This document shows positions 30,765 through 53,238 of a stretch of 64,000 nucleotides of DNA, in pieces. The translations under genes and the position numbers were made by a program. The notes below the pieces were generated by a model. That model did not search any database. It had not been told where the DNA came from and was given only the letters and a program-made list of their open reading frames with translations. The first letter of the stretch is position 1, and each line of letters begins with the position of its first letter. The DNA is from Hyunsoonleella ulvae (GTDB lineage Bacteria > Bacteroidota > Bacteroidia > Flavobacteriales > Flavobacteriaceae), in the NCBI RefSeq assembly GCF_016827605.1, contig NZ_JAEPJQ010000007.1:62001-126000 (forward strand), read 5' to 3'.

Positions 30765-30782
30765 TTTTAACAGATTTATACT

Positions 30783-30790
30783 CAAAATTA
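30783..30790 (-). promoter_or_regulatory. -7 box for the cupin gene
   Basis: The minus strand reads TAATTTTG, a full consensus match. The predicted start is about 12 bases before the ATG at 30764. Confidence 0.45.
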
Positions 30791-32434: not shown

Positions 32435-32439
32435 ACGAC

Positions 32440-36843: not shown

Positions 36844-37435
36844 CTAAATCTTGGATAACGGAATTTGGATTTACTACCACGTCTTTAGAGGTAATGACTT
36901 TTTTTATTGTTTTGGTAAAAATTTTAAAGTCTAAATTAAAACTTAAGTTCTCAACATATTCGATATCTTTTTGCAACCTATCATTCCAATTCAATAAATT
37001 TCTACCAGAAACTTGAGCTAATCCAGTAATACCTGGTCTTATATAATGTCTTTTTCTTTCAGTATCTGAGTAATAAGGTAAATATCTTATTAATAAAGGC
37101 CTAGGGCCTATGAAACTCATATCGCCTTTTACGATATTGATAAGTTGTGGTAATTCATCTAATGATGTTTTTCTAATCATTTTGCCTATTGATGTTAAGC
37201 GTTTTTCATCAGGTAATAACTTTCCGTTTTTATCCTTTTTATCATTCATGGTTTTAAACTTTATTATACTGAATATTTTTTCGTTCTTTCCAGGGCGTTT
37301 TTGAACGAAAAACGGATTACCCTTGTTAGTAAATGCAAGGATCATGATTAGTAATATAAATATAGGTAAGGTTAATATTAGACCAAGCATAGCTGTGATG
37401 ACATCTAAAAAACGTTTTAAACAAAATTGATACAT
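36821..37435 (-). CDS. Initiating sugar-phosphate transferase (PglC/WcaJ type), second copy
   Basis: The 204-residue product is clearly related to the copy at 35546-36157: an N-terminal reentrant helix, PFFVQKRPGKNEKIFSIIKFKTM, SLDELPQLINIVKGDMSFIGPRPLL and PGITGLAQVSGRN. The catalytic Asp-Glu pair is kept (LDE). Sequence differences are spread over the whole length, so it is an older paralogue rather than a recent copy. It precedes the formyltransferase and follows the carrier-protein gene by 46 bases. Confidence 0.93.
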   Translation of the reverse strand: MYQFCLKRFLDVITAMLGLILTLPIFILLIMILAFTNKGNPFFVQKRPGKNEKIFSIIKFKTMNDKKDKNGKLLPDEKRLTSIGKMIRKTSLDELPQLINIVKGDMSFIGPRPLLIRYLPYYSDTERKRHYIRPGITGLAQVSGRNLLNWNDRLQKDIEYVENLSFNLDFKIFTKTIKKVITSKDVVVNPNSVIQDLDAIRSKN

Positions 37436-37481: not shown

Positions 37482-37730
37482 CTACGTTAAATTCAGTTCT
37501 CTCTCAATTGTTTTTAATAAATCTCCTATATTATTCATATTCATCAGGTCCATAAGTTTAAACTTAATATTAAAACTTTTCTCAATATCTGTAATAATCA
37601 TCATATGAGTAATGGATTCCCAACCATTTACATCATTGGCTGTTGTTGTTTCATTTAGAGTGAAATTGTCGTGTTCAAGAATCTTAACAAAAGATTCTTT
37701 TACCTTTTCTAAAATAGCTTCTTTTTTCAT
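37482..37730 (-). CDS. Acyl/peptidyl carrier protein (DltC-like)
   Basis: The 82-residue four-helix protein has the phosphopantetheine site in GWESITHM (Ser39). The usual DSL is replaced by ESI, as in some stand-alone carriers. It lies one base from the adenylating-enzyme gene, the same order as DltA and DltC. It should hold an activated amino acid or acyl group as a thioester for the nearby acyltransferases. Confidence 0.9.
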   Translation of the reverse strand: MKKEAILEKVKESFVKILEHDNFTLNETTTANDVNGWESITHMMIITDIEKSFNIKFKLMDLMNMNNIGDLLKTIERELNLT

Positions 37731-37731
37731 T

Positions 37732-39231
37732 TTATTTTGAAATTAATAGTCTTAATTGTTTTCTATCAAGTTTTCCATTAGTGTTATGTGGCAACTTATC
37801 TACAAAATGAAATTGACTAGGAATCATATAGTTTGGAAGCTTATCTTGAAGAAACTCAATAATAACATTAGTATCGATATTTTTACCTTCCATAACTAAA
37901 GCAAGTTCATTATTACCGTTATTATTATTTACATCAATAACACTTATATTTCTATCTTTTATGAATGCTTTTATTTGATGCTCAATTTCTCCTAATTCTA
38001 CCCTAAATCCTCTAATCTTTACTTGAAAATCTTTGCGTTCAACATACATTAAATCCCCATTGTTATCTATATAGCAAATGTCCCCTGTTTTGTAAAACCT
38101 TTTTATTTGTCCTAAATTATCTTTTGCATTGAAGAAAGCTTTAGCATTTAATTCATTATTTTTCCAATAACCAGTGGTAACTTGATTACCTGCCAAACAT
38201 AGCTCACCGTGATTCCCTTTTGGTTGTTCGTTATTTTCTTCATCTACGATTAAAAAATCAAATCCATCTAAAGGCTTTCCAACGGATAGTACACCAGCAT
38301 GAGTTTTGTATTCGTTTGGATTAAAAGTATAGTAAGTACTACATACAGTGCATTCTGTTGGCCCATAATGATTGTATATAGTACTATTTGGAATACATTT
38401 AGTCCACTCCCTCAAAATATTATCATAGAGTTTTCCTCCGCCAAAAACACAATACCTAACACTTTTGGCATCAATTTCATTAAAATAGGGTCTTAGGTAA
38501 TAAATGATGGATGGTACCATTTTCAGGACTGTTAAATCGTATTGCTTAAGCAATTTAAATATTTGAAAATATTTTATACTTTTTGGAGGAACCGTGTATA
38601 CACAAGCACCAGCAAGAATTGCAGGCATAAAAGCGGTAAGGGATGCGTCAAATGTTAAGTCGTACATTTGCAAGCACTTATCAGAGCTATTTATTTTATA
38701 CTCTTTGTCATTATAAAGAGCAGTTAATAAAGCGTTTAAATTATAAAAACGTATGGGTATGCCCTTTGGTGTTCCAGTACTTCCACTAGTAAAAAGTATG
38801 TAAGCAATATTATTTTGATAATAATTAAAAGCCTTGATTTTCCCTAATGTTTCTGATGGTTCGTGACTTTTAATATTAATAATTTTATAATTATTTATGT
38901 AATCGGAATTTTTAGAGCTATCGAATACTGTTACGCAATCTATTTTTTTTAATATTTCATTATTACGTTTTACAGGAGCATCTGGATTAATGGGGATATA
39001 GGCTTTGCCTTCGAACCAGAGGGCAAAAATTGTAGCATAGGTTTCTAAATCATCATTAGCTATTAGACCAATTAGTTTGTTTTCTTCATTTATTTTGTTG
39101 TTTATTATGTATCTAATGTGTAAGACACAATCCATCAGCTCTTTGTATGTGTAAAACTTTGAGTCAATACACAAAGCTTGTTTATCTGAATGTTTGGTAA
39201 AGCTGTCTACGAGTCTATCAAGAAAATTCAT
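37732..39231 (-). CDS. Amino-acid-adenylating enzyme (DltA/NRPS A-domain-like)
   Basis: This 499-residue stand-alone ANL enzyme has core motifs A3 FTSGSTGTPKG (147-157), A4 YDLTFDASLTAFMP with Asp195, A5 NHYGPTE (287-293), A7 YKTGD and A10 NTNGKLDRKQL (Lys487). The Asp in the A4 FDAS motif binds the alpha-amino group in amino-acid-activating enzymes, so an amino acid rather than a fatty acid is the likely substrate. It should load the adjacent carrier protein. It is 9 bases from the upstream acyltransferase gene. Confidence 0.88.
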   Translation of the reverse strand: MNFLDRLVDSFTKHSDKQALCIDSKFYTYKELMDCVLHIRYIINNKINEENKLIGLIANDDLETYATIFALWFEGKAYIPINPDAPVKRNNEILKKIDCVTVFDSSKNSDYINNYKIINIKSHEPSETLGKIKAFNYYQNNIAYILFTSGSTGTPKGIPIRFYNLNALLTALYNDKEYKINSSDKCLQMYDLTFDASLTAFMPAILAGACVYTVPPKSIKYFQIFKLLKQYDLTVLKMVPSIIYYLRPYFNEIDAKSVRYCVFGGGKLYDNILREWTKCIPNSTIYNHYGPTECTVCSTYYTFNPNEYKTHAGVLSVGKPLDGFDFLIVDEENNEQPKGNHGELCLAGNQVTTGYWKNNELNAKAFFNAKDNLGQIKRFYKTGDICYIDNNGDLMYVERKDFQVKIRGFRVELGEIEHQIKAFIKDRNISVIDVNNNNGNNELALVMEGKNIDTNVIIEFLQDKLPNYMIPSQFHFVDKLPHNTNGKLDRKQLRLLISK

Positions 39232-39240
39232 ATAAATAAT

Positions 39241-40329
39241 TTATGCAAAGTGACCATCTTGTTGATAAACAAATTCATTTTTCAAGTCGAAGCCTAGGCT
39301 ATTGTTGTATACAGAGACTATATTACGTTTGTTTACGTACACACTTGTAAAAGAGTTTTTAATGTATTTACCTAAATTTTCATCTTCAGTTAAAAGAAAA
39401 GTACATTTAGATTTTATAAAGTGCTCCATTAAAGTATCAGCGCAAAATTTGTAATTTTTTTCAGAACACAAAAAGTATCTTGTTACAAATTCGTTTCCTC
39501 TTATTAAGAATGAAATAAAACCAATCAATTGATGATCTAAATATACCATTAAACTATTGTTGTGTATTTTGTTTGAAATACTGCTTATAAGGCATGTATA
39601 GTTATTTTTATGGTTCAAAGGTGCATTGGTATATTGATTATTGTTTATTTGCCAATTAATATAATTTTTGGTTTTGAAAACTAAATCGTTTTTAACAAAA
39701 GGGGCAATAAATTCCCAGTTTTTTTCGTTTATGTAGCTTATGTATTCATAGGAAACACCATTTAAATTAAATTTTAAACGATTTAATTTTGTTATTGAGT
39801 AATGAGAAATCCATTTGATGCCTTTTAAAACGGGAGAAATAAATTTAAGCATCTTGAGTTTAGAAGTGAGAAGGCCATCATCCAGATTGAACATAAAAAT
39901 ATATCTCGTTCTTTCTGAGAATTCTGTATAAGGCTGCTTTTTGTAATACTCTAAAGTATCAGCACCCAAGTATTTAATAATTACTTTTTCTTTAGCAGCA
40001 TCTGTTGAAGCTTTCTTTGTATAGGCAGATAATACGGAATCCTTGTATTTATCACATACCCACCATCTACTACTCCAAAACACCTTTTCGATACCATTTT
40101 TGGTTTTAATTAGATCGGGTATTAGATAAACAAATGAAACTATTTCTTCTTTTTCAAGCCCCATAACTCCACAAATATCATTAGCTTCAAAGCGTTCATT
40201 TTGTAACAACCATTTTGCTTTGCTTTTACTAAACGGAACCATTTTATTAGAAAAACCCCAATATAAATTCTGTTCCAAAGCAATTTCTAGTTTCTCTTTT
40301 GTAATTAATTCTAAACGAAGATCTGTCAT
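39241..40329 (-). CDS. GNAT-like acyltransferase
   Basis: The 362-residue product has no signal peptide. It shows GNAT-like elements (NDICGVMGLEKEEIVSFVYLI and NSLMVYLDHQLIGFISFLIRG) and aromatic-rich middle segments. It is more distant from the tandem FemAB-like array downstream but shares its general size. Its position just upstream of the adenylating enzyme and carrier protein suggests it uses the loaded carrier as donor, perhaps to acylate an amino sugar. The exact family is not recognised. Confidence 0.65.
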   Translation of the reverse strand: MTDLRLELITKEKLEIALEQNLYWGFSNKMVPFSKSKAKWLLQNERFEANDICGVMGLEKEEIVSFVYLIPDLIKTKNGIEKVFWSSRWWVCDKYKDSVLSAYTKKASTDAAKEKVIIKYLGADTLEYYKKQPYTEFSERTRYIFMFNLDDGLLTSKLKMLKFISPVLKGIKWISHYSITKLNRLKFNLNGVSYEYISYINEKNWEFIAPFVKNDLVFKTKNYINWQINNNQYTNAPLNHKNNYTCLISSISNKIHNNSLMVYLDHQLIGFISFLIRGNEFVTRYFLCSEKNYKFCADTLMEHFIKSKCTFLLTEDENLGKYIKNSFTSVYVNKRNIVSVYNNSLGFDLKNEFVYQQDGHFA

Positions 40330-40358: not shown

Positions 40359-41510
40359 CTATTTTAAATTATCGTATTCGTTTAAAAGGGCATCCCAAAT
40401 TACTTGGCGTTGGTATCTTTTAACAATAAGATCTCTACAAGTTTTACTAGAAAACTGTATTTCCCCTTTAAAAATTGAAACCATCTTGTTGTATAGGGTA
40501 TTTGTGTCTTTAACGGGGATAATTGTCCCATTTTTACCTTCTATTACAATTTCATTACAACCATTAATGTTTGAAACAATACAAGGAAGACCCATAGCTC
40601 CTGCTTGCATCACTACATTAGGAAAACCTTCCCTGTAGCTAACAAAGGTTAAAACGTTGGACAACACAAAATAAGGACATACGTCTTCTACCCATCCTGA
40701 ACTAACAATATTTTTATTGGTTTTTATAATTTCAGTTGTTTTTACTTTTAAAGGGTCTAATTCATTTTCATAACCGCCTACCAGTAGTAGTTTTATTCCA
40801 GAGTGATTTTTACACATTTTATCAAATGCTTCTATGAGCTCATTAACACCTTTATCAGAGACTAGTCTACCAACAAAAAGAAATACAAAATCTGATTTTT
40901 TAATACCAAGCTCTTCTCTCAATTTATCTTTTTTATCTTCATCTGTAAACCTGATTGGATCGAACCTTTGTATATCAATTCCATTAGAACTACCATTTCC
41001 AATAACCGTCAATTTACTTTTATTTGTAAAATTGTGTTCTAGAATTATATTTTTTAGCCCAAAAGAATTTGGATATATTTTCGTAGCCCAGCTATAAGTT
41101 GCTCTTTCTACAAAATTTAATAATAATCGTTTCAGACCTTTTGCTTCAACAAGAGGTAATCCAGCGATAGTATGTAATCTATGTTCAACACCAGCAAGTT
41201 TAGCAGCTAACATAGACAAAGTCCCTGCTTTTGGTGTATGAGAGTGTACAATAAAGGGTTTTTCTTTCTTAAACAATCTATAAAGCTTATAAACTGCTAT
41301 GATATCCTTTAATGGAGTTATTTTCCTGGTCATTTCAATCGCGAATGCGGGGACGCCTTCTATAGCAGGGAGTCTATCTAGTTCATTGTTTTTTCCTTGA
41401 GAAGAAACACCAAGAATTTCATAATGTTGAGACATAAACTTTAGTTGTCCATGCAAAAGACCTAAAAGAGATAGTGGAACCGTAGTAATCCTTATTATTT
41501 TCTTTTTCAT
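40359..41510 (-). CDS. GT4-family glycosyltransferase (first in the operon)
   Basis: The 383-residue GT-B enzyme has an N-terminal acceptor domain with VHSHTPKAGTLSMLAAKLAG and a C-terminal donor domain. The latter has FLFVGRLVSDKGVNELIEAF and VSYREGFPNVVMQAGAMGLP, the E-x7-E type motif. It resembles capsule GT4 enzymes that transfer GalNAc or similar sugars early in repeat-unit assembly. It is probably the first gene of the operon running down to 33402. Confidence 0.9.
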   Translation of the reverse strand: MKKKIIRITTVPLSLLGLLHGQLKFMSQHYEILGVSSQGKNNELDRLPAIEGVPAFAIEMTRKITPLKDIIAVYKLYRLFKKEKPFIVHSHTPKAGTLSMLAAKLAGVEHRLHTIAGLPLVEAKGLKRLLLNFVERATYSWATKIYPNSFGLKNIILEHNFTNKSKLTVIGNGSSNGIDIQRFDPIRFTDEDKKDKLREELGIKKSDFVFLFVGRLVSDKGVNELIEAFDKMCKNHSGIKLLLVGGYENELDPLKVKTTEIIKTNKNIVSSGWVEDVCPYFVLSNVLTFVSYREGFPNVVMQAGAMGLPCIVSNINGCNEIVIEGKNGTIIPVKDTNTLYNKMVSIFKGEIQFSSKTCRDLIVKRYQRQVIWDALLNEYDNLK

Positions 41511-41643: not shown

Positions 41644-42801
41644 TTATAATTTTAATATTCTTACAGTTTGATGATAATTTTTACCAATAATTAAAAACTC
41701 TCTTCCATTTACTTCATAAACTTTTACATCTTCCATTTTAGAAATGGTTAAATACAAAAAATCAAGAATATTTTTTTTCAGAAATTTATAATCATCACTT
41801 AAAATATTTATGATATTAGAAGAGGCTAACTTTTTTTTGTTTATGGTTCTCACATCAGAAATAGGTCCAGTGTCTAACTTATGATTTGTATAATTTTTAC
41901 GTTCCCTTCTTATTAAAAATAACATCCTAGGTATAAATTCATTTATCTTTTTAGATTTTAAGAACTCTTTTATTAGGTACTTAATATAAACACAATGCAT
42001 AAAGAACGTTTGTTTTTCCGAATAAACTAAATAATGATAATATTGATAAATATTATTACTCCATCTTCTCTTGTAGTCTGTTCCTCCAACCCCCATTTCA
42101 AATAATTTGTATCCATTTTCAATACACCATTCTATTTGTTTATAAATTTCTACATGGCCTAATCCAAACTTCGTGTAATCAATATCAAAAGACGACACAT
42201 AACTAAATAATATTTTATCGTAATGATAATTCAAGGAAATTTCAATTGGCTCATCATTGTTGAAAATCACAAATAATGATGCATCTTTTGAAAGTATTTT
42301 AGCAAATGTGCTTTTTTTTAAATAATTCCATTCGGATAAATTTTTATGAGTTTCATTCAATTGATTAAACCGATTAGTAATCATTCTATGAAGATTATCC
42401 ATTAAGAATAGATACTCGACATGATTTATATCTCCATGATAAAATTTATAATCTATGTTAAGGCATTCCTCCAGACGGTTTACATATCTTTTAATGATAC
42501 TTCGTTTTTTACTTTTAAACTGTTTTAGGATATAGTCATCTGCAGATTTAAATTCATTTAATAAAATTGAGTACCCCCAATTATATTGAGGTATTTTTTT
42601 AATTAGAAACTTTTCGTCTCTTAGGGAAAGATTAAAATATTCTGGTACCAAAGGTAAGGAATAATAATTTTTATATTCCTCTTCAACATCTTTATTAAAA
42701 AGACTCTGGCCGCAGTAGTGTACTTTAATAAAAAGTTTTTGGTAACTATTTTTACTTAATTGTATTGGAAAAACCTCTATATTTCTTTTGTTGTCTGACA
42801 T
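41644..42801 (-). CDS. Tandem FemAB/GNAT-like paralogue, copy 6 of 6
   Basis: The 385-residue protein shows the array's shared pattern: LNEFKSADDYI, then KRSIIKRYVNRLE, FYHGDINHVEY, SLFVIFNNDEPIEISLNYH, DIDYTKFGLGH and FEMGVGGTDYKRRW. It carries the extra C-terminal module seen in four of six copies (YKFLKKNILDFLYLTISKM onward). It has no signal peptide or membrane helix, so it is cytoplasmic. The family link is FemAB/Acetyltransf_6; an acyl or aminoacyl transferase on a sugar is likely. It is the last gene of the array, 4 bases from copy 5. Confidence 0.7.
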   Translation of the reverse strand: MSDNKRNIEVFPIQLSKNSYQKLFIKVHYCGQSLFNKDVEEEYKNYYSLPLVPEYFNLSLRDEKFLIKKIPQYNWGYSILLNEFKSADDYILKQFKSKKRSIIKRYVNRLEECLNIDYKFYHGDINHVEYLFLMDNLHRMITNRFNQLNETHKNLSEWNYLKKSTFAKILSKDASLFVIFNNDEPIEISLNYHYDKILFSYVSSFDIDYTKFGLGHVEIYKQIEWCIENGYKLFEMGVGGTDYKRRWSNNIYQYYHYLVYSEKQTFFMHCVYIKYLIKEFLKSKKINEFIPRMLFLIRRERKNYTNHKLDTGPISDVRTINKKKLASSNIINILSDDYKFLKKNILDFLYLTISKMEDVKVYEVNGREFLIIGKNYHQTVRILKL

Positions 42802-42805
42802 GGAC

Positions 42806-43993
42806 TTAAGTTTCTCGTTCTATTTTAGCATTAAACTTACCAGACTTTAAAAAGTAAGTATACGATGATTTACTATAGCTGTAAATGATAGTATTTATTA
42901 CTTTTTGCCTTTTATCAAAAATAAATTTATTGACTGTTCTGGTTAAATTAGAATCTAGATTAAAGTAATCTATTTCTGTTAAATATTCAGGTTTTGGAAT
43001 CTTATCTAGCAATTGGTATTTATATGTGTTTTTTTTCTTTAATCTATTTGATTTATTCGAAATGCGAAATTTTAATTTTGAATATATTCCATATAACTTG
43101 TGAAAGTTTATTTTTTTAAGAAGGATGATTAAATAATACTTTAAATATGCCTTGCTATAACCGATATAAACTTTAAGTTTAGAAATAGGCCCTTTAGAGT
43201 GACAAAAAAAATGCTCTTCATATTCATATTTAGTATCTATATATTTTCTTTTGTGGTTAAAATCTCCTCTGCCCATGTCAAAAACACGAATATTATTTTC
43301 AAAGCTCCAGTTTAGATGATTAAGCATGTTAACATGACCAATATTAAACATATCATAAGCAGTATCATAAACACTATTCCAATGAAACACGGTGTGCTGA
43401 TAAATAAAGTTTAAAGTTATACAAATAGGTTTATTTTGATGATATATAGCAAAGATGGCGGCTTCCTTATTGTGGATTAGGGCAAACATTATTTTATGGT
43501 AAACCTCTAAATAGGGTAACTCAAAGTTTATTTCTTTTTTTTGATTAAATCGTTTTACTATCAATTCTTTTAGAATCATGAATAATGTATCATATTCTAA
43601 CCGAGTAATCTCACCAAAAAAGACTTTATAATTGGGGTTGATGCATAAGTCTAAACGTTTTTTATATCTTTTTAGTTGTGATTTTCTACCTCTCCCAAGT
43701 TTTTTACTTAGATAAAAGTCTAAACTATGATACTTCTGCAGATTTATTAAAAAACCATTGTATAAAGGAGCTTTTAGGACTCTTGTATTGTTTGGGTTCT
43801 TTTCAGTATCTAATTTTAAGTAATTAGGGATATCATAAATTGAAAACGTTGAATGGGCTTTAAAAGCAACTTTTTTTTTAGGAATTGTTATTAAACCGTG
43901 GTTTGCTAAAGTATTGGTTACCCTCTTTATGCATCTAATATTGGGGTTTTCTTTAAAAAAAAAATCTAGAAACAAACTCAGTCTTTTGGACAT
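42806..43993 (-). CDS. Tandem FemAB/GNAT-like paralogue, copy 5 of 6
   Basis: The 395-residue protein has the N-terminal YDIPNYLK motif (about 73-80), LGRGRKSQLKRYKKRLD and FFGEITRLEYDTLF. It continues with IFAIYHQNKPICITLNF, YDTAYDMFNIGH and FDMGRGDFNHKRK. The C-terminal module is present but diverged (YFNLDSNLTRTVNKFIF). The W after the last basic cluster, conserved in other copies, is replaced by Y-I, so activity could differ. One base separates it from copy 4. Confidence 0.7.
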   Translation of the reverse strand: MSKRLSLFLDFFFKENPNIRCIKRVTNTLANHGLITIPKKKVAFKAHSTFSIYDIPNYLKLDTEKNPNNTRVLKAPLYNGFLINLQKYHSLDFYLSKKLGRGRKSQLKRYKKRLDLCINPNYKVFFGEITRLEYDTLFMILKELIVKRFNQKKEINFELPYLEVYHKIMFALIHNKEAAIFAIYHQNKPICITLNFIYQHTVFHWNSVYDTAYDMFNIGHVNMLNHLNWSFENNIRVFDMGRGDFNHKRKYIDTKYEYEEHFFCHSKGPISKLKVYIGYSKAYLKYYLIILLKKINFHKLYGIYSKLKFRISNKSNRLKKKNTYKYQLLDKIPKPEYLTEIDYFNLDSNLTRTVNKFIFDKRQKVINTIIYSYSKSSYTYFLKSGKFNAKIERET

Positions 43994-43994
43994 A

Positions 43995-45161
43995 CTAACT
44001 TTTTTGATTAAAAATTAAAAATAGCCTTACTTTATCTCCTATGATTTGATAATGATTCGTATTATCTAAACTATGATGTAGAGTAATGTTACTTAAGTTC
44101 TCATTAGTCTCAAATAAAAAATCATGGACATGCTTTTTTAAGAATGCGTAATCTTTCTCCTTATAAAGTATTACCTCAAAATTATCAAATCCTTTATTAC
44201 TTTTCTTTTTTTCAGAAAGTTGCGGGATGTCCTGTTCTTTATGTTTTAAGGCAAATTTTACTTTTTTTATTTTCTTTATGGAGGTGTAGATATTAGTTCG
44301 CTTTATAACTCTGAAAGTAGAAAATTTACATCTGTTTTTTATATTAATAATTACCATAGCTGGGTAAAGCCACCATTTGCTTTTGGGAATTAATAACTGT
44401 GTATGATTATAATATAGTGTTGTACTCCATTTTTTCTTGTAATAGTCATAGCCTTTCAGTAAATCATACACTTCAAATTTATTGTTGATACACCATTCAA
44501 TATTTTTTATCATATCGATGCTTCCAAGATTAAACTTGGAATAATCGATGTTATAGCCACTAATAATGTAAAAGGCCATATTGTCTAAAAACATATTTAT
44601 TCTAATGCTTATGGGATCATTTCCATTAAAAATAACTAGCATATTAGCCTTTTTTTTACAAATTAAATCAAAGCATAAGCTATGGAACTCTTCTAGATAT
44701 TGAATTTCATAATTATACTCTTGTTTTTGTGAAAATCTTCGAGATAATAATTCTTTTAATACAATAAAATACGTATCGTATTCTTGTTGAGTGATACTGC
44801 CGTAATATGTTTTTACCCTTATGTTAAAACATTTATTGAGTTTTTTTAAGCGCCTCTTTAAATTATTTCTAGACTTTGCACTAAATTGCTGGGCTAAATA
44901 ATCATCACAGTTATCAAAGTTTTTTAGATTAATTAAATGTCCAGAAATGGTTTTGTAGTGTATAGAAAGAAATGAAGGCTTCTTTTCTGTTTTAAGGTAA
45001 TCTGGAATGTCTCTTATCAAGGTAGCATCTGTACTATATTCTTTTACAACATTTGGGATTTTAATAATTTTGGACTTAAAGGAAATTGTTTTATAACAAG
45101 ATAAATATTTGTCTTCCGTAATTAATGCTTTTAGAAATGTTATTTTGTTAAAAACCTTCAA
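43995..45161 (-). CDS. Tandem FemAB/GNAT-like paralogue, copy 4 of 6
   Basis: The 388-residue protein has IRDIPDYLK (49-57), LKNFDNCDDYLAQQF (79-93), YYGSITQQEYDTYF, MLVIFNGNDPISIRI (174-188), IDYSKFNLG (205-213) and YDLLKGYDYYKKKW (232-245). The C-terminal module YAFLKKHVHDFLFETNENL is clear. It overlaps copy 3 by 4 bases, typical of coupled translation. It is the clearest example of the shared layout and a good reference for the array. Confidence 0.72.
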   Translation of the reverse strand: MKVFNKITFLKALITEDKYLSCYKTISFKSKIIKIPNVVKEYSTDATLIRDIPDYLKTEKKPSFLSIHYKTISGHLINLKNFDNCDDYLAQQFSAKSRNNLKRRLKKLNKCFNIRVKTYYGSITQQEYDTYFIVLKELLSRRFSQKQEYNYEIQYLEEFHSLCFDLICKKKANMLVIFNGNDPISIRINMFLDNMAFYIISGYNIDYSKFNLGSIDMIKNIEWCINNKFEVYDLLKGYDYYKKKWSTTLYYNHTQLLIPKSKWWLYPAMVIINIKNRCKFSTFRVIKRTNIYTSIKKIKKVKFALKHKEQDIPQLSEKKKSNKGFDNFEVILYKEKDYAFLKKHVHDFLFETNENLSNITLHHSLDNTNHYQIIGDKVRLFLIFNQKS

Positions 45162-46327
45162 CTTAATGTAATTTTGGTTATTGTATTACTGCTCTTAATA
45201 AAATATGCGTTCTTATCTGAAAGATGTTGATGTACTTCTATACAATCCAATTCTTCTTGGACTTTATATAAAGCATCATAAACGGGACGTTTTAAAAAGT
45301 TATAACGTTCATTGGTAAAATCAATCTGTCTGGTTTGGGTAATTATTGTCGGATTGTTTAGTTGTTCTAATAAATAGTGAAGCTTATTACTTGTTACAGT
45401 GTTCCTATATTTATATTTGAGTATTAAGTGGTACAAATAATCGAATTTTAATTTTTTTAGAATTCCAATTATCTTATAAAACGAGCTTATTTTGAGAAAC
45501 AAAGAAATCCCTCTAAGTTTTGCCCAAAAATTATTTTTTTGATAAATTATATGTTTCTGAAAGATATAGTTATCATCTATTAACCGTGATTTATACTCAT
45601 ATTTTCCCTTTAATAAATCAAAAACTTTAATGTTGTTATCATAACACCATTCCAATTGCTTAATAAAATCAGTAAAGCCTAAGTAATATTTAGAATAATC
45701 AATATCGTAAGCTCTTACATAGCCATAAATAACTTCATCTCTTATCAAGTTAAGACAAATGCTAATAGGTTTATTTTTATCGTATATAACAAAAAGTACC
45801 GCCTCCTTGTTTCTAATCAGGGGAAGGGCGATTTTAGTATACACTTCCCAACGTGTTAAATCATAGTTTTTTATTTTCTTTTCAACAAAACGTTTTTCAA
45901 TAAGTTTATGAAATTCTGAAAACAAGGTATTGAATTCATTTTCTGAAATATTGCCATAATAGGCCTTATATGAAATGCTAAATACCTTCTCTAACCTTCT
46001 CCTGTAAGTTTTAAATTTTGAACGCCTACTACTGCTGAAATTGGTATTTAGATAATCTGTTGTGTCTTTATAGTTTTTTAGTATTATCATGGAGCCTTCA
46101 AAACTATTTACCGTTTTAACTGCCCATTTACTTTCATTATAATTAGGAATGAGGTAACTAGGGAAGTCATACAAACAGAATACTGGAGTAGTGTAAGGAT
46201 TTGTAGCCTTTTTTAAAGCACTGTTTTTTTCTGTTATCTTATTGAAAAGACTATGAAACACAGGTAATTCGTTTCTATTCTCCAAAAAAACACTTAACAT
46301 GTCCAATCTTTTTATCTTCTTGTGCAT
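45158..46327 (-). CDS. Tandem FemAB/GNAT-like paralogue, copy 3 of 6
   Basis: The 389-residue protein has LYDFPSYLI, LKNYKDTTDYLNTNF, RSKFKTYRRRLEK, YYGNISENEFNTLF and VLFVIYDKNKPISICLNL. It continues with YDIDYSKYYLG and FDLLKGKYEYKSRL. The C-terminal module (YNFLKRPVYDALYKVQEEL) is present. It overlaps copy 2 by 16 bases. An alternative internal ATG nine codons in would remove part of that overlap; neither start can be proven. Confidence 0.7.
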   Translation of the reverse strand: MHKKIKRLDMLSVFLENRNELPVFHSLFNKITEKNSALKKATNPYTTPVFCLYDFPSYLIPNYNESKWAVKTVNSFEGSMIILKNYKDTTDYLNTNFSSSRRSKFKTYRRRLEKVFSISYKAYYGNISENEFNTLFSEFHKLIEKRFVEKKIKNYDLTRWEVYTKIALPLIRNKEAVLFVIYDKNKPISICLNLIRDEVIYGYVRAYDIDYSKYYLGFTDFIKQLEWCYDNNIKVFDLLKGKYEYKSRLIDDNYIFQKHIIYQKNNFWAKLRGISLFLKISSFYKIIGILKKLKFDYLYHLILKYKYRNTVTSNKLHYLLEQLNNPTIITQTRQIDFTNERYNFLKRPVYDALYKVQEELDCIEVHQHLSDKNAYFIKSSNTITKITLS

Positions 46328-47262
46328 ATAAGTTGTAACTTATAAAGTATTTTATCAAAATTGAGTATACCTCCAATTATTTTTTTATCTCTTAAAAATT
46401 GAATTATTTTTAGTTCTGAGGCCAATAGTTTTGAAAATAAAATTGAAAATAAAGATGATTTTTTATAATAAATGCGATAGTTAAAGGAATATTTATGATT
46501 ACACCATTTAGATTTATATGGAGATACTCCTATGCCCATGTCAAAAACAGTTATTTCACTTTTTAAACACCATTTTATATTGTTTAAAGTGCAAATATCT
46601 CCCATATTATACTTAGAATATGCTGTGTCATATACTTGTATATGGCTGAGCACAGAATTTTTTTTGTGGTAGTTTAATGTTATTGCTATGGGTTTTGTAT
46701 TGTTGAAAATAACATGTAATGATGCTTTTTTACTTAAAATTTTATCATAAACCTCATTTTTTATTCCTATCCAATTTTTTAGATATCTATTTAGAATTTT
46801 CTTTTGCTCAAAACGTTTTTTTAGCATTGTAAAGAATTCGTTAAAAATAATTTCAAATTCCTTTTCAGACATTTCTCCAAAAAACACTTTCTGCTTTATA
46901 TCATTATCATTTAATAGTTTTCTTTCTTTAGAAAACAAGTTTTTGAGATTTCTTTTACTCAATTGGTTGTGTAAAAACTCATCTAAAGATTGGTACCTTT
47001 TTAGAAAGATCAAAGCTCCTTGATGCTGTTTTACATCTACATACTTTAAATGAGAGTTATTGCTTTCTGAGTTGATTTTAATATACCCAGGCACATCTTT
47101 TACGATAAAGGTACTTTTGTTTAAAGTAATTTGAGTTTTTTTTGTTAATTCACTTGAGTTTAGTTCGTTTACAACGCTTTTTAAATTAGGGATATATGTT
47201 TTGTCATCAACAAACAAATCAAAAATAAAAGAACTTTGAAAAAATAAACTATTAAAAAACAA
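46312..47262 (-). CDS. Tandem FemAB/GNAT-like paralogue, copy 2 of 6 (short form)
   Basis: The 316-residue protein has VKDVPGYIK, LKRYQSLDEFLHNQL, VFFGEMSEKEFEIIF, SLHVIFNNTKPIAITLNYH, YDTAYSKYNMG and FDMGIGVSPYKSKW. It stops soon after the last motif and lacks the about 70-residue C-terminal module. No module-like sequence is seen downstream in other frames. It is the shortest copy. Spacing to copy 1 is 17 bases. Confidence 0.68.
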   Translation of the reverse strand: MFFNSLFFQSSFIFDLFVDDKTYIPNLKSVVNELNSSELTKKTQITLNKSTFIVKDVPGYIKINSESNNSHLKYVDVKQHQGALIFLKRYQSLDEFLHNQLSKRNLKNLFSKERKLLNDNDIKQKVFFGEMSEKEFEIIFNEFFTMLKKRFEQKKILNRYLKNWIGIKNEVYDKILSKKASLHVIFNNTKPIAITLNYHKKNSVLSHIQVYDTAYSKYNMGDICTLNNIKWCLKSEITVFDMGIGVSPYKSKWCNHKYSFNYRIYYKKSSLFSILFSKLLASELKIIQFLRDKKIIGGILNFDKILYKLQLICTRR

Positions 47263-47279
47263 ACTGAATAAATTTAACT

Positions 47280-48287
47280 TTAAATCCTCTTTCTGTTTCT
47301 GAAAAACAAAATTTTATGGACATAATTCATTAAATCGTTCCTCCTTAGGAATAATTTAAATCTATAGTAATTAGTATAGATTTTTGACAGAATTCTAGCA
47401 ATTATAGATTTACTGTCAAAATAAAGATGATATTCATACCAATATGTGTGATTTGCCCACCTTTTCTTATACTCATAGTAACCTTTAGAAAAATCTAAAG
47501 TATCAATTTTATTATCAAAGCACCATTCAAGTTGTTGCATAGTACTTACCGTTCCAAGTCTATATTTTGCATAATCTGTATCAAAAACCCTTATAACGTC
47601 AAACATTACATTTTTAGCAAAGTTTGTTAATGTTATAGCTATTGGCTTATCTTCATCAAAAATAACAAATAATGCCGCAGATTTATTTCTAATCATTGGA
47701 AGTGTTACTTTCTTGTAAAAGGCCCATTCTTGGGGCGTTAAAATATTATTGTTAATTTTTTTTCTCAAAAAGCGTTTTTTTAAAAGTGTTTTGAAATATG
47801 AAAACACATATTCATATTCTTCATTGGTTATTTGGCCATGATATATTTTGAGCTTGGAACTAATTGAGTTATCAATTTTTCTTTTGTAAGATTTAAACTT
47901 TCTTCTACTTTTTGCACTTATAACATCAAGCATGTAATCGTTTAAATTTGTGTATTCTTTTAAATGACAGCGATAACCTGGATATTGAACAATTTGAATC
48001 GATTTTAAACCAATTTTGTTGTTTAGTGTTGTGGGTTTATAATGAGTGGGTACATCATACAGAATAAAAAGTTTATTCTTGAAATCATATTTAGTAAAGT
48101 TCTTGGTGAGTTCATAAGTAATTGCTTTGGTATGAGTTTTGCCTAGGTTATAGTACACTGGCAAATACTCATTTTTTATTAGCGGTAAATTATTAAATAT
48201 GTTATTTCGCCTCACGGCTTTTTCATAAGAAAAATGCTCTAGCCAAATACTTGTAAAAGCTTCAGATAAAAAAGGATTATTTTTCAT
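47280..48287 (-). CDS. Tandem FemAB/GNAT-like paralogue, copy 1 of 6 (short form)
   Basis: The 335-residue protein has LYDVPTHYK, LKEYTNLNDYMLDVI, RRKFKSYKRKID, IYHGQITNEEYEYVF and ALFVIFDEDKPIAITLTN. It continues with FDTDYAKYRLG and LDFSKGYYEYKKRW. It lacks the C-terminal module. The N-terminus is about 30 residues longer than in copy 2. It overlaps the upstream SGNH gene by 11 bases, tying the array to the MBOAT/SGNH pair. Confidence 0.7.
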   Translation of the reverse strand: MKNNPFLSEAFTSIWLEHFSYEKAVRRNNIFNNLPLIKNEYLPVYYNLGKTHTKAITYELTKNFTKYDFKNKLFILYDVPTHYKPTTLNNKIGLKSIQIVQYPGYRCHLKEYTNLNDYMLDVISAKSRRKFKSYKRKIDNSISSKLKIYHGQITNEEYEYVFSYFKTLLKKRFLRKKINNNILTPQEWAFYKKVTLPMIRNKSAALFVIFDEDKPIAITLTNFAKNVMFDVIRVFDTDYAKYRLGTVSTMQQLEWCFDNKIDTLDFSKGYYEYKKRWANHTYWYEYHLYFDSKSIIARILSKIYTNYYRFKLFLRRNDLMNYVHKILFFRNRKRI

Positions 48288-49245
48288 TTAGTCTGGCTTT
48301 TGATTTTTTCAATACTAATTTGAGGTCCTGACATAATACTTTTGTGAACTTGATAGCACTATTAGATTCAAAATGTGATCCATCATAAGTTCTATAGGTG
48401 TTATTTGTCTCTGAATAATTTAAGAATTTCAAATTATAGGCTTTGCTTATACTATCAATATACGAATTAAAGTTTGGCCAATAATTATTTTCAAAATCTA
48501 AAAAATATTTATCGCAAGGCATTCTTACTAAAACAAGAATCCCTTTTTCTTTAAGAAATTCGATAGTCTCAATAAAATAATCTTTTCTATATGAAGAAAT
48601 AATCTCATTTTTAGCTTTATCCTCGTAGAACTTGTAGTTTAATGATTTCCAGTGGTCTATATCTTTGTCAGTTATTATACTTTTCTTAGTGTTCAGTCTT
48701 ATTTCATTCCAGCCATTTTCATGAGAAATCCTATTTGGCCATTGCTCGTTAACATGTAATGCATTGTATAATGAAGCAGGGTAAGTTTTAATGATGTAGT
48801 TGTAATTAGGGTTGGATGTGAAGTTATTTATCTTTCCAATGGTCAATGTTTTGTCAAATTCTGTTATCTGCTCATTTTTAATAAATCGTTTTGGAGATGT
48901 AAAATTACCAGGACTTACAGACATTATAAAAATCCCATTATCCATGTCAGAAATCTTAGCCTTAATTGCGTTTAGATAAACACTACCAAAATGAGCTTCA
49001 TTTAACGCAAAGTTTACAAATGCAGAGTTACTTTCTTTAAAATTAAACAGCTCACTATCAGTTATATAAGTGGATATTCCCTCATTAGCTCTAGATAGAC
49101 CTAGAATTAAATTGTTGGATTTTTGTGTAAACTTGTAATAATGTGGGTCGACATAGGTCTTACTTAGTCTATCTACCATGAAAATATAAGCAAGAATAAA
49201 TACACAAGCAAAAAGCACTATTTTTAAAATAAAGGATCTAAGCAT
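48277..49245 (-). CDS. SGNH/DltD-like membrane-anchored protein
   Basis: The 322-residue product has one N-terminal membrane helix (LKIVLFACVFILAYIFMV, about 7-24) and a periplasmic domain. ILGLSRANEG (Ser51) stands at the block I position and YDGSHFES (Asp288, His291) at block V, giving a possible Ser-Asp-His triad with GLS in place of GDS. This matches the partner proteins that follow MBOAT genes in Bacteroidota and the DltD idea. It likely acts with the second MBOAT 3 bases upstream. Confidence 0.75.
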   Translation of the reverse strand: MLRSFILKIVLFACVFILAYIFMVDRLSKTYVDPHYYKFTQKSNNLILGLSRANEGISTYITDSELFNFKESNSAFVNFALNEAHFGSVYLNAIKAKISDMDNGIFIMSVSPGNFTSPKRFIKNEQITEFDKTLTIGKINNFTSNPNYNYIIKTYPASLYNALHVNEQWPNRISHENGWNEIRLNTKKSIITDKDIDHWKSLNYKFYEDKAKNEIISSYRKDYFIETIEFLKEKGILVLVRMPCDKYFLDFENNYWPNFNSYIDSISKAYNLKFLNYSETNNTYRTYDGSHFESNSAIKFTKVLCQDLKLVLKKSKARLNEK

Positions 49246-49248
49246 GGT

Positions 49249-50694
49249 TTAAAACTGAAAATAAATAAATGAGTTTTGTCTATTTATGGCAAATAGTACC
49301 ATAATAATTATATAAGTTAAGCTAAGTGCGTACTTAGTGTAGGTATTTTTATTTATAAATAATTCATATATTTTATCATTTCCTTTTTTATAAAATACGT
49401 ATTGTGTAAAAAGGATTAAAACAATGGATAAAAATATTTCAAAATAGTTGTTTATAATATTAAAATGCAAACTTCCAAAATTAAACATGTGCTTTAAATA
49501 AGATAAAGCATGTGAAACGTTTGGAGACCTAAAAAAAACTAATGTGAGTATTATTAAACTAATGCCGGTAAACCATCCCGTTAAGCCTCGTAACCTTTTG
49601 GAAAAACCTAAATAATCAAAAATTTTCGACCTTATTTTATTTGAAGAAATTTCGCAAACTAAAATCAATGCATTAAGTAAGCTCCATATCACAAATGTCC
49701 AGTTTGCTCCGTGCCAAAGGCCATTTACAAAAAAAACGATGCTAACAGCTAGTAGCCTTGAAATCTTTTTCCTCTTAACCAATGGTATATAAATAAAATC
49801 ACGTAACCATGTCGTAAAGGATATGTGCCAGCGTTTCCAAAATTCTGCAATCGAAGTCGCAAATATTGGACGATTAAAGTTTTGAATTAAATCAAATCCC
49901 ATTATTTTCGCTACCCCTATAGCTATTGAAGTATAAGCTGAAAAGTCATAATATATTTGAAAACAAAAAAATATGCTTCCCAACATTAAAGCTAAGTTAT
50001 GAGGAGAATCAGGTGTACTAAATGCAGCATCAACGTATACACCTAATCTGTCTGCCACAACAAGTTTTAAAAAAAAACCCCATGCAGCAACAATAATACC
50101 TTGCTGCATATTTTTTATTGATAAAGGTGTTTTTGATTTTATCTGTGGTAACAAACGTGACGCCCTTTCTATGGGGCCAGCTACTAATTGGGGAAAAAAA
50201 GCGACGTAAAGTGCAAATTTCCCCAAATGCTTTTCAGGTTTTATAACTCCTCTATATATTTCAATCGAGTAACTCATTGTTTGAAACGTGTAGAAACTAA
50301 TGCCTACAGGAAGTAAAATATTACTAAAGTTATAAGAGCTGGTTTCTTCAGCAGAGATAAGACTTACGCCAAAAAAATCGAATATACTCTGTAGGTTGGA
50401 TGTGAAGAAAAATAGATACTTAAAAGATATTAAAATACCAACATTGGTTATTATGCTAAGTATTAGGTAGTTTCTTTTGATACTTTTTTTTGATGCTTTA
50501 AAAATCTTTATGCCACAAAAATAATCAACAAGGGTAGATATTATTAATAGAACAAGTAATTCAGGCTCATGAGCCATATAAAAATAATAACTTGCTGAAA
50601 GCAACCAAGCCCACCGATACCTATGAGGAATACTATAATATCCTGTGATAACAATAGGTAGGAATATTAGGAATTCAAACGAATTGAATAACAT
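49249..50694 (-). CDS. MBOAT O-acyltransferase (AlgI/DltB-like), second copy
   Basis: This 481-residue integral membrane protein has the same marks as the copy at 30983: SFYTFQTMSYSIEIY, PQLVAGPIERASR, FWKRWHISFTTWLRD (His290) and LWHGANWTF with the invariant His328. It is the first gene of an eight-gene minus-strand operon (MBOAT, SGNH, then six FemAB-like genes). It probably acylates the same surface polysaccharide at a different position or with a different donor than the first copy. Confidence 0.93.
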   Translation of the reverse strand: MLFNSFEFLIFLPIVITGYYSIPHRYRWAWLLSASYYFYMAHEPELLVLLIISTLVDYFCGIKIFKASKKSIKRNYLILSIITNVGILISFKYLFFFTSNLQSIFDFFGVSLISAEETSSYNFSNILLPVGISFYTFQTMSYSIEIYRGVIKPEKHLGKFALYVAFFPQLVAGPIERASRLLPQIKSKTPLSIKNMQQGIIVAAWGFFLKLVVADRLGVYVDAAFSTPDSPHNLALMLGSIFFCFQIYYDFSAYTSIAIGVAKIMGFDLIQNFNRPIFATSIAEFWKRWHISFTTWLRDFIYIPLVKRKKISRLLAVSIVFFVNGLWHGANWTFVIWSLLNALILVCEISSNKIRSKIFDYLGFSKRLRGLTGWFTGISLIILTLVFFRSPNVSHALSYLKHMFNFGSLHFNIINNYFEIFLSIVLILFTQYVFYKKGNDKIYELFINKNTYTKYALSLTYIIIMVLFAINRQNSFIYFQF

Positions 50695-51138: not shown

Positions 51139-51168
51139 ATGAATAAAATTCCCAAATCTCAAAGAATT

Positions 51169-53238
51169 ATGAAAAAGACATCCAATTTAATAATTTACTT
51201 TTTTCTAGCAACTATTACTTGTGTATCTTGTAATACAGAGGAATTATATGTTGAACCAGAACAGGTTGAAGAAGAAGTTGTTGACAAAACTGAAGAAGAG
51301 CCTGTAGAAGAAGAAGAGCCCGTTCAGGTAGATACAAGTTTACCATGTGATTTTGATTTAAGTAATATACAACCTAACTCAACAGTTGTTATTAATTGTA
51401 TCCTAGATTTAGGGGGACAAACTATAAACCTACCAGAAAATATAACTTTTGTTTATGAAGGTGGGGATATAGTTAATGGTCAGTTAAATTTTGCCGATGG
51501 AGGTAATTTTGATACCGTGTTTATGAATTCCTCTCTAACAATAGGAGGAATTGCTCCTGCTATGAAGGATCCGGTTTTCGTATTTAAACCTGAACGATGG
51601 AAGATAGTTGAGGGTAGAGTCTCCGATGAACAAGCCAAGACCAATACTGATTTAATGGAAGAATATTTCCTAACGGTTAAAAACCTTGGAATCAGTACTT
51701 TTAAAATTGACAAGTTGGATGCTTATTTTAAAGTTGATGGTTTTCTTAATCAAGCAGTTCCGGAATTGCATGCTATAAATATTCCTTCTGATTTCAATTT
51801 AGAAATGACTTCAAACACACATTTAAGAATGCAGCCTCATGGTCACTTCAGAGCAGTGTTACTTGGTATATACGATGAAAAGAATATAAGTGTTACTGGA
51901 GGCGTTTTACATGGAGACAGAGAAGAGCATAATTATGGTTCTGGATTTGTAGACTCAGATGGTGCTACGGGTAATACACATGAATGGGTAACTGTGATGG
52001 CCATAAAAGGGGGGCAAAATATAACGATAGATAATGTGACAATGATGGATCCTGCGGGAGATTGTTTAAGTATTGCGAGTATATATCATTATTTTGACCC
52101 AAGACACATCAGATCAAAAAATATAAGTATAAATAATACAAAATTTATTAGAGCTCGTAGAACTAACTTTGTAATTACCAGTGCAGAACAGGTAACAATA
52201 GAAAATAGTGAGTTTATTGATGGAGGAATTGATATGCCTAATTCGAATGGGGCTGCCCCATCTTCAAACTTAAATTTTGAACCAGTACGAGGGAAAGATC
52301 CTGCTACTGGAGAGATTATTGAATATGAAAGAGTAAGTCACATTTACATAAGAAACAATAAACAGATTGTTAATGATAAAGCTGCTAACCCTAAAGCAGG
52401 AGACTTTCAAATATCACATGGAAACGGTCCCATTATTATAGAGGGTAATGAAATGGTTAACACAGGTATTTCTTTCACTACTGTAGACGGATTAATAATC
52501 AGAAATAACGAAATCATTAACGGAGAGATAGCTGCAGGTGGTTCTGGAAATATCAATAGAACTGACACTGTATTTGGAAACGAGATATATGGAAACACCG
52601 TTGTGACTGATAAAACAGCTATTAGTATTGCAGGAAACGGTACAACAGTGAGAAACAATACTTTTGAAGGTAAAATCGGGGCTTCTTTCGGAGCTGGGGC
52701 TACAAATACTTCAGAAGGATCATCTAATACAATATTTAGAGATAATGTGATTAAAGCTGAAAATAGAGGTATTACAAGTATGAACACCTTATCTAACGTT
52801 TTAATCGAGAACAATGAAATTATGATGTTAGCAGGTAGTACTTTTGGTCTTGTACTCACAAACAGTTGGGATAGTGTGACAGAGGAAGCGAATTTTATTG
52901 TTAGAGGAAATACTATTACTGGAACTAAATCTGGGACAGAAAGAGGGGCACCTTCCAGTGTTATAGGTGCAAACTCAATAACCCTTGAAAATAATAATAT
53001 GGGAGAGATTCAGATTAATGGAGGTAGAGACATTAATGTTATTGATAATAAAATAGAGGGAAGTATTGGTAGTAATGGTGTTTTATTTTATGCAGATGCA
53101 CCAAATACATTATTTGACAGTAATGAAATTACTATATACCCAACCAAAACCCCTTTAAATATCGACTGTGTTGCTATGGCTAATGGTATAAGTCTTTCTT
53201 CTACTACCTTTGAAAACCAACAGTGTATTGAAAAATAA
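51169..53238 (+). CDS. Right-handed beta-helix surface lipoprotein
   Basis: From the ATG at 51169 the product has 689 residues with a lipoprotein signal ending TCVSC. A strongly acidic linker follows (EELYVEPEQVEEEVVD and on, about 20-45), which may be a surface-export signal as in Bacteroidetes lipoproteins. The rest has repeated short coils such as NITIDNVTMMD, SINNTKFIRA, TIENSEFIDGG and IIRNNEIINGE, the mark of a parallel beta-helix. Such proteins bind or cleave polysaccharides. It lies inside the polysaccharide locus on the opposite strand, so it may process or tether the product. No lyase catalytic site was recognised. Confidence 0.78.
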   Translation: MKKTSNLIIYFFLATITCVSCNTEELYVEPEQVEEEVVDKTEEEPVEEEEPVQVDTSLPCDFDLSNIQPNSTVVINCILDLGGQTINLPENITFVYEGGDIVNGQLNFADGGNFDTVFMNSSLTIGGIAPAMKDPVFVFKPERWKIVEGRVSDEQAKTNTDLMEEYFLTVKNLGISTFKIDKLDAYFKVDGFLNQAVPELHAINIPSDFNLEMTSNTHLRMQPHGHFRAVLLGIYDEKNISVTGGVLHGDREEHNYGSGFVDSDGATGNTHEWVTVMAIKGGQNITIDNVTMMDPAGDCLSIASIYHYFDPRHIRSKNISINNTKFIRARRTNFVITSAEQVTIENSEFIDGGIDMPNSNGAAPSSNLNFEPVRGKDPATGEIIEYERVSHIYIRNNKQIVNDKAANPKAGDFQISHGNGPIIIEGNEMVNTGISFTTVDGLIIRNNEIINGEIAAGGSGNINRTDTVFGNEIYGNTVVTDKTAISIAGNGTTVRNNTFEGKIGASFGAGATNTSEGSSNTIFRDNVIKAENRGITSMNTLSNVLIENNEIMMLAGSTFGLVLTNSWDSVTEEANFIVRGNTITGTKSGTERGAPSSVIGANSITLENNNMGEIQINGGRDINVIDNKIEGSIGSNGVLFYADAPNTLFDSNEITIYPTKTPLNIDCVAMANGISLSSTTFENQQCIEK

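Follow-up and report, generated by a model that had tools for sequence, protein, structure and literature searches.

Why should a bacterium keep six diverged copies of one gene side by side? The question is raised by a 64,000-nucleotide stretch of the Hyunsoonleella ulvae genome (RefSeq assembly GCF_016827605.1, contig NZ_JAEPJQ010000007.1, positions 62,001 to 126,000 of the forward strand; here called the window), in which positions 41644–48287 hold six complete minus-strand open reading frames (ORFs), arranged in tandem behind an SGNH-like gene and an MBOAT (membrane O-acyltransferase) gene. All six encode diverged paralogues of the family PF13480 (Acetyltransf_6). We consider it about an even chance that they are six specialised FemX-like transferases, which would attach aminoacyl (or acyl) groups to the repeat unit of a Wzx/Wzy-type polysaccharide while this is still lipid-linked.

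Six tandem paralogues

The copies are named p6 to p1 in the order of transcription, p6 being transcribed first.

p6, copy 1: 47280–48287, minus strand; 335 residues; PF13480 (E 3.4e-11) and ATE_C (1.6e-5); Lys274, equivalent to FemX Lys305
p5, copy 2: 46312–47262, minus strand; 316 residues, lacking the C-terminal extension; PF13480 (1.6e-9); Lys250
p4, copy 3: 45158–46327, minus strand; 389 residues; PF13480 (3.7e-12); Lys246
p3, copy 4: 43995–45161, minus strand; 388 residues; PF13480 (4.6e-11); Lys242
p2, copy 5: 42806–43993, minus strand; 395 residues; PF13480 (2.6e-10); Lys248
p1, copy 6, the last: 41644–42801, minus strand; 385 residues; PF13480 (1.4e-9) and FemAB_like (2.5e-7); Lys244

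The first-pass annotation, which described six adjacent minus-strand paralogues that overlap or nearly touch, is borne out. With mechanically chosen starts the array has gaps of 4, 1 and 17 bases and overlaps of 4 and 16, and p6 overlaps the SGNH-like gene by 11 bases. PF13480 lies above its curated cut-off in all six copies (38.5–47 bits against 22; E 3.7e-12 to 1.6e-9). Identity of p2–p6 to p1 is 24–29%, a likeness far beyond chance; the downstream four copies are long (385–395 residues) and carry a C-terminal extension, and the upstream two are short. Chance likeness or decay of copies in the window is ruled out by the intact ORFs, the PF13480 matches and the presence of the catalytic lysine in every copy. 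All eight PF13480 matches of the 4.06-Mb genome fall in the same polysaccharide locus, six in the array and two in the 710-residue protein P0001 described below. Between 41400 and 51200 a single terminator-like site was found, on the plus strand, with none on the array strand, and a promoter scan returned no more sites than shuffled sequence (69 against 64.2, standard deviation 9.0).

The motif strings originally proposed for the copies hold to differing degrees. LKx[FY] and [YF]xGx[IM]xxxE[YF] are present in all six, and D[IVF]Px[YH], VI[FY]...PIxI and Dx[DA]Yx[KM] in five each; the last string, F-D-[ML]-x-[KR]-G-x(3)-Y-K, occurs as written in one copy and has to be relaxed to [FYL][DE][MLF]xxGxxx[YH]K to cover all six.

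Predicted fold

AlphaFold models were obtained for two of the six copies, p6 (predicted local distance difference test, pLDDT, 92.6; predicted template modelling score, pTM, 0.89) and p4 (pLDDT 95.2, pTM 0.92). Read from their structural elements and matches, both predicted structures are double-GNAT folds with FemX among the top Foldseek matches, which agrees, for these two copies, with the FemAB/GNAT fold first suggested. For p4, FemX chains come top, the first of them with a peptidyl-RNA-type ligand (6.3e-9), followed by 2hqy, by Sbb17 with streptothrisamine and by MprF-type proteins; the top matches of p6 are 2hqy, MprF and FemX. PDB entry 2hqy is a protein of unknown function, and apart from it the best PDB matches are aminoacyl-tRNA-dependent transferases (FemX, MprF and Sbb17). 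Among the 50 matches listed for each copy, ATE1 appears for both copies and a leucyl/phenylalanyl transferase for p4, and the first protein recognised as a GNAT dependent on coenzyme A (CoA) stands at rank 30 for p6 and rank 32 for p4.

Active site

The available part of a study of FemX (PMC4964394) describes an N-terminal GNAT domain that binds the acceptor and a C-terminal domain that binds the tRNA, with Lys305 and Phe304 essential. The lysine that matches Lys305 is found in all six copies (K244, K248, K242, K246, K250 and K274 of p1 to p6) and in 269 of 269 family members, a set defined by a score above 150 and a length of at least 290 residues, smaller or lower-scoring members standing outside the count. 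Its register was fixed by the alignment of FemX with P0001 together with the shared PF13480 position 142. Several copies with broken active sites, envisaged at the outset as a sign against the FemAB/GNAT assignment, are thus not what the array or these relatives contain.

The residue that precedes the lysine, in the place of FemX Phe304, is aromatic in 246 of the 269 members (Tyr in 226, Trp in 12, Phe in 8) and otherwise His (17), Asn (3) or Ile (3); p2 of the window has the His. Conservation is also high at R144 (266/269), G215 (269/269) and G239 (268/269). The CoA pyrophosphate loop, sought as [QR]xxGx[GA], occurs in none of the 269. The array family therefore appears to resemble FemX in fold, as modelled, and in its catalytic lysine, yet it lies outside the FemAB Pfam family (PF02388). 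Its members are basic, with a median isoelectric point (pI) of 9.37 (n=269) against 8.61 for glycosyltransferases (n=75); this character, together with a basic, hydrophobic helix that follows the core, fits tRNA or membrane binding and proves neither.

Conservation of position and order

Related loci were collected by a p6-specific search of named genomes, in which 89 of 198 pattern stretches encoded a relative and the best 80 were kept. These 80 loci, all from Flavobacteriaceae as judged from their titles, are biased towards p6, and a p6-type gene is present in every one by construction of the search.

The same array, position by position, recurs in other genomes, as the first-pass annotation had anticipated. 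Between the window and 14 other loci holding all six types, reciprocal best matches fall at the copy's own position in 84 of 84 cases, and in the same order; the 14 had been preselected by type profiles built from the copies of the window and of genomes G030 and G017, so the test is not blind, and locus L061 stands outside the full-array set because its p4 copies are not clear. The loci with full arrays include L045 of Wocania arenilitoris HMF6543 and L066 of Cellulophaga fucicola DSM 24786, both cultured marine bacteria. In a tree of the copies from those three genomes, of the quick kind without bootstrap (as are all trees here), each of p1 to p6 forms a clade with support 100. All 20 of the loci in which three or more types could be assigned show the order p6-p5-p4-p3-p2-p1; the count took plus-strand copies at position 9000 or later whose type was clear by a 1.35-fold score margin, for which 20 of the 80 loci qualified, and left aside extra p1-like copies upstream of p6 (at 6279 in L066 and 6273 in L071).

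Ratios of nonsynonymous to synonymous substitution rates (dN/dS) lie between 0.07 and 0.30 in 34 of 42 comparisons from seven chosen pairs of loci, the other eight values not being computable and many dS values exceeding 1. The pairs with the lowest dS, L048/L049 and L066/L071, give 0.09–0.17, except for 0.30 at p4 of L066/L071, a value that may come from copies that are not orthologous. The array copies are under purifying selection.

Twenty alignment columns are fixed within positions and differ between them, and 13 of these fall in residues 189–242 of p4, just before catalytic Lys246, in a segment that is also among the more conserved stretches. Such position-specific residues, many of them near the lysine, fit the earlier suggestion that each copy handles a different donor or site; that the acceptor would be a single glycan, with the labour divided among the copies, we infer. 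Judged from their sequences, the six copies are old, separately maintained genes, with each position apparently specialised. Concerted evolution by gene conversion is not supported, since orthologues are closer across genera than paralogues are within an array (mean identity 65.7% against 36.0% in the C-terminal GNAT domain). Specialisation confined to either the acceptor (N-terminal) or the donor (C-terminal) domain finds no support either, the ratios of orthologue to paralogue identity, 1.84 and 1.83, being alike.

Copy number and make-up of the arrays

Among 120 genomes, each from a different genus of the window's family, the array family was found in 30, its own genome included, with one copy in 12, two in seven, three in one, four in two and six to eight in eight; one of these totals, the seven matches of G026, includes two contig-end pieces. 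A survey of the phylum gave matches in 4 of 198 genomes, three from the same family (again including its own) and one from a different family, whose match is partial and spans 107 positions. Within the 80 loci, 18 have one copy, 26 two, 8 three, 3 four, 2 five, 11 six, 11 seven and 1 eight, counts that short contigs can lower. Copy number is thus bimodal in both samples, at one to three or six to eight. Six-gene arrays recur, but the number of copies is not constant, running from one to eight across loci. With 8 of 120 sampled genera carrying six to eight copies, the family offers a natural experiment across copy numbers of one, two, six and seven.

Doubling of p4 (p4') is seen in L047, L050–L053 and L071; in the seven-gene arrays L047 and L050–L053 the extra p4-type copy lies between p4 and p3. 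A few relatives contain fragments (240 residues in L087, 154 and 160 residues in L093). Three six-gene arrays, L070, L076 and L089, have another composition, in which the p6-type gene comes first and the other five belong to the p1-like branch. For L076 and L089 the genes at positions 2 to 6 group in pairs, with support 96–100, and the two at position 1 belong to the p6 clade without being sisters. In the Arenibacter loci L069, L088 and L122 the seven copies are of mixed make-up, and a Cupin_8 relative lies between the sixth and the seventh. L066 and L071 each have one further p1-like copy upstream of p6; the L066 copy, the one of the two included in the tree, groups with the last position of the L070, L076 and L089 arrays. 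In L034 and L039, p1-like genes stand apart from p6. From these sequence groupings, arrays seem to draw on a common stock of sub-families and to begin with the p6 type. The presence of p6 follows from the search, but its first place does not, because 10 kb of flanking sequence was retrieved on either side, as far as the contig reached.

The surrounding polysaccharide locus

The genes flanking the array include the following.

Right-handed beta-helix protein: 51139–53238, plus strand; divergent from MBOAT-A; PF13229 (2.1e-8)
MBOAT-A: 49249–50694, minus strand; membrane O-acyltransferase, PF03062 (4.3e-29); DltB-like, TIGR04091 at 148.6 bits against a cut-off of 375
SGNH-A: 48277–49245, minus strand; 322 residues, directly upstream of p6; motifs GLSR and DGSH by eye
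GT4 glycosyltransferase: 40359–41510, minus strand; after p1; PF00534 (2.3e-29); a relative follows p1 in L043–L053
362-residue protein: 39241–40329, minus strand; no credible Pfam match; often adjoins the pair below
Carrier (82 residues) and amino-acid adenylation enzyme, DltC/DltA-like: 37482–39231, minus strand; PF00550 (6.3e-5) and PF00501 (2e-58); TIGR01733 at 305 bits against 317.4
P0001: 33402–35534, minus strand; 710 residues with two FemX-like domains (21–359 and 371–708); PF13480 (3.3e-19) and PF02388 FemAB (1.5e-12)

The array is surrounded by genes for glycosyltransferases, EpsG and AsnB, for a formyl- and a pyruvyltransferase and for two Bac_transf (PglC-type) initial transferases; others, just outside the window, encode Wzx-, Wza- and Wzc-like proteins, a UDP-sugar dehydrogenase, a DegT aminotransferase and a Polysacc_synt_2 dehydratase. 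From this gene content we read the region as a Wzx/Wzy-type exo- or capsular polysaccharide locus.

The MBOAT assigned upstream of the array is confirmed by its PF03062 match. The SGNH label of its partner is supported by the two motifs read by eye and finds no Pfam match even at E 10. As for the proposed coupling of this pair to the array, relatives of both genes adjoin the array in 15 of 15 full arrays, the window included, but the pair tracks the array less closely than the copies track each other: identity matrices of the six positions correlate mutually at r 0.81–0.96, against 0.59–0.69 with MBOAT-A and 0.38–0.52 with SGNH-A. The six copies thus look as though they were inherited as a unit, and the pair is better regarded as a neighbour than as a proven part.

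Of the 23 loci with at least six copies, 14 show a relative of the beta-helix protein in the flanks retrieved, as do 2 of the 57 others; in this association, as in those of Cupin_8 and the adenylation domain, loci of related genera were counted as independent in clusters and p-values. Cupin_8 (JmjC-like) relatives occur in or beside large arrays, at 29919–30785 (minus strand) of the window and in L069, L088 and L122; they are found in 8 of the 23 loci and in 1 of the 57, related genera again weighing in. The Cupin_8 family includes peptide and amino-acid hydroxylases, and its members here may hydroxylate amino acids of the array product.

P0001 matches FemX (4ii9) at 4.3e-6, with FemX Lys305 aligned to its Lys303. 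Its family also varies in size: a relative in G017 (L027, 3618–7328, minus strand) has 1236 residues and at least two FemX-like domains, and relatives of 876–889 residues occur in other genomes.

Proposed function and alternatives

From the intact frames, the fold of two copies, the lysine, the missing CoA loop, the selection, the orthology and order and the shared locus, we infer a donor (aminoacyl-tRNA, suggested solely by fold neighbours and motifs), an acceptor (a lipid-linked amino sugar), a membrane location and a division of labour. The products of p1 to p6 would most likely be located on the cytoplasmic membrane, at its inner face, where they would take aminoacyl groups from aminoacyl-tRNA, other acyl groups being less likely, and pass them to amines of the undecaprenyl-linked repeat unit before it is flipped. 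Each array position, in its fixed place, would be a distinct enzyme that has a donor or acceptor of its own. The copies might act in series, so that a peptide grows by one residue per enzyme, or in parallel, each on its own sugar. Between them, the DegT aminotransferase and the Polysacc_synt_2 dehydratase just outside the window could supply a 4-amino sugar, an amine usable by an aminoacyl transferase. O-acylation of the same polymer, on the outer side of the membrane, would fall to MBOAT-A and SGNH-A. Should aminoacyl-tRNA be the donor, the array would link tRNA to an extracellular glycan without the ribosome, and in Gram-negative bacteria.

Several observations weigh against the proposal. 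The query-normalised template modelling (TM) scores to FemX chains are just 0.38–0.57. A profile of 46 members found no relative among PDB sequences (best E 0.93), PF02388 is not listed for any of the six copies at E 0.1, and comparison of the array profile with that of the P0001 family is not significant (E 0.36). Moreover, the P0001 family is not basic (median pI 7.95, n=67), so a high pI does not mark out FemX-like enzymes in general. Middle members are absent in some loci (L116 has p6-p5-p2-p1 and L068 p6-p5-p1) and a p5-type gene lies on the opposite strand in seven two-copy loci (L085, L092, L097, L109, L112, L117 and L118), which a strict one-operon series does not predict; opposite-strand copies also occur in L084 and L093. 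No tRNA gene is present in the window, and among 60 of the 80 loci two have one, both of them one- or two-copy loci, so the idea of a tRNA gene dedicated to the arrays is rejected. Finally, the adenylation enzyme and carrier in the same locus are a possible other source of activated acyl groups.

This last point leads to the alternative that the acyl or aminoacyl donor of the transferases is the DltC-like carrier, once the DltA-like enzyme has charged it. The two genes run in the same direction as the array, and the adenylation domain is found again in G030 and G017, with a carrier relative detected in G017. Coupling to large arrays is not seen, however: within the 10-kb flanks, which are truncated, the adenylation domain occurs in 2 of 23 loci with at least six copies against 9 of 57 others (p 0.5), and L098 and L099 are examples of loci where a single array copy accompanies it. 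A better partner for the adenylation domain is the 362-residue protein, found along with it in 8 of the 11 loci (among the 80) where the domain is seen, and we regard the carrier as a very unlikely donor. A supply of acyl-CoA, with each enzyme N-acylating a different amino sugar of the repeat unit, deserves more serious thought and is still unlikely. PF13480 is labelled an acetyltransferase domain, the related protein HfsK is discussed as a putative acyltransferase in the available part of PMC5362036, and CoA-dependent tandem GNATs do occur among the fold matches, at the low ranks given above. Set against this are the absence of the CoA loop and the presence of the FemX lysine in all 269 members, as well as the dependence on aminoacyl-tRNA of the highest-ranked fold matches of known function.

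Two alternatives remain. Leftover tandem duplicates of little or no function might account for copy numbers that range from one to eight and for the short fragments in L087 and L093, but six intact frames with the catalytic lysine, dN/dS of at most 0.30 in 34 comparisons and old one-to-one orthology make this scarcely credible. The other is a sub-case of the FemX-like transferases we favour, a colinear series in which p6 would start and p1 end a short glycan peptide, one residue per enzyme. It would suit the order kept in all 20 assignable loci, the first place of the p6 type in arrays of different make-up and the bimodal copy number; yet middle members are absent from some loci, p1-like genes occur apart from p6 (L034, L039) or upstream of it (L066, L071), and gene order can also come from inheritance of a tandem duplication, so that we hold a strict series to be rather unlikely. 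Its fullest version is a little more doubtful again: a tRNA-fed assembly line in which p6 would start, the middle copies extend and p1 end a defined peptide on each repeat, with lineages rewriting the peptide by gene swap, doubling or loss and Cupin_8 enzymes hydroxylating it.

Comparison with known systems

FemX, FemA and FemB build the pentaglycine bridge of peptidoglycan. With these enzymes and MurM the array proteins share the double-GNAT fold (as predicted), the catalytic lysine, the lack of a CoA loop and, as proposed here, the principle of several paralogues, each with its own step; the residue before the lysine is aromatic in most members, p2 being an exception. They differ from them in having no PF02388 match, in a fold similarity that is modest (TM 0.38–0.57), in their Gram-negative polysaccharide locus and in forming six to eight copies in fixed order. 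The setting makes an acceptor other than a peptidoglycan precursor likelier.

A precedent for tying a FemX-like protein to an exopolysaccharide and to the membrane is HfsK of the Caulobacter crescentus holdfast. According to the available text of PMC5362036, this tandem GNAT is soluble yet associates with the membrane and carries a C-terminal extension, and its catalytic role is unclear. HfsK, compared here by that description, is a single gene and binds cyclic di-GMP, whereas the genes here form an ordered array. PapO, from the pap polysaccharide cluster of Pseudomonas fluorescens, is also a GNAT-family protein with low likeness to FemX, but in the accessible part of PMC7716237 it is a single in-silico prediction without an array. 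Orf11 of the BD-12 pathway is FemX-like and transfers glycine from tRNA onto streptothrisamine, according to the accessible part of PMC12945691. Sba18/Sbb17 (PDB 9wqw, 9wqx and 9wqy) are FemX-like proteins that we group with Orf11 from their PDB titles alone; unlike the array, all of these are single antibiotic-pathway enzymes acting on a small soluble acceptor.

The Dlt system (DltA–D) resembles the present locus in combining an MBOAT, an SGNH-like protein, an adenylation enzyme and a carrier, but MBOAT-A and the adenylation enzyme both score below the DltB and DltA model cut-offs for D-alanylation, the latter reaching 260.4 bits against 559.85. To our knowledge the Dlt system has no FemX-like array. 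An ordered tandem array of such genes was not described in the literature searched, from which subscription journals were mostly missing. FemX-like transferases of surface glycans are already known singly, with their chemistry open in the case of HfsK, and the ordered array is the new part.

Other genes of the window

The carrier, adenylation enzyme and 362-residue protein (37482–40329, minus strand) are found as a trio in 8 of the 80 loci, most of which lack a large array, and are possibly an N-acylation cassette. To the left of the polysaccharide locus, 13218–18992 (plus strand) encodes a protein of 1924 residues with just a weak AAA_16 match, below the cut-off. The two PglC-type initial sugar transferases lie at 35546–36157 and 36821–37435 (both minus strand), and the presence of two in a single locus suggests two glycan chains or two repeat units. 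A second MBOAT/SGNH-like pair is found at 30983–33405 (plus strand); its MBOAT is 81–82% identical in G004, G007, G017 and G030, with an Lrp/AsnC gene nearby in several of them.

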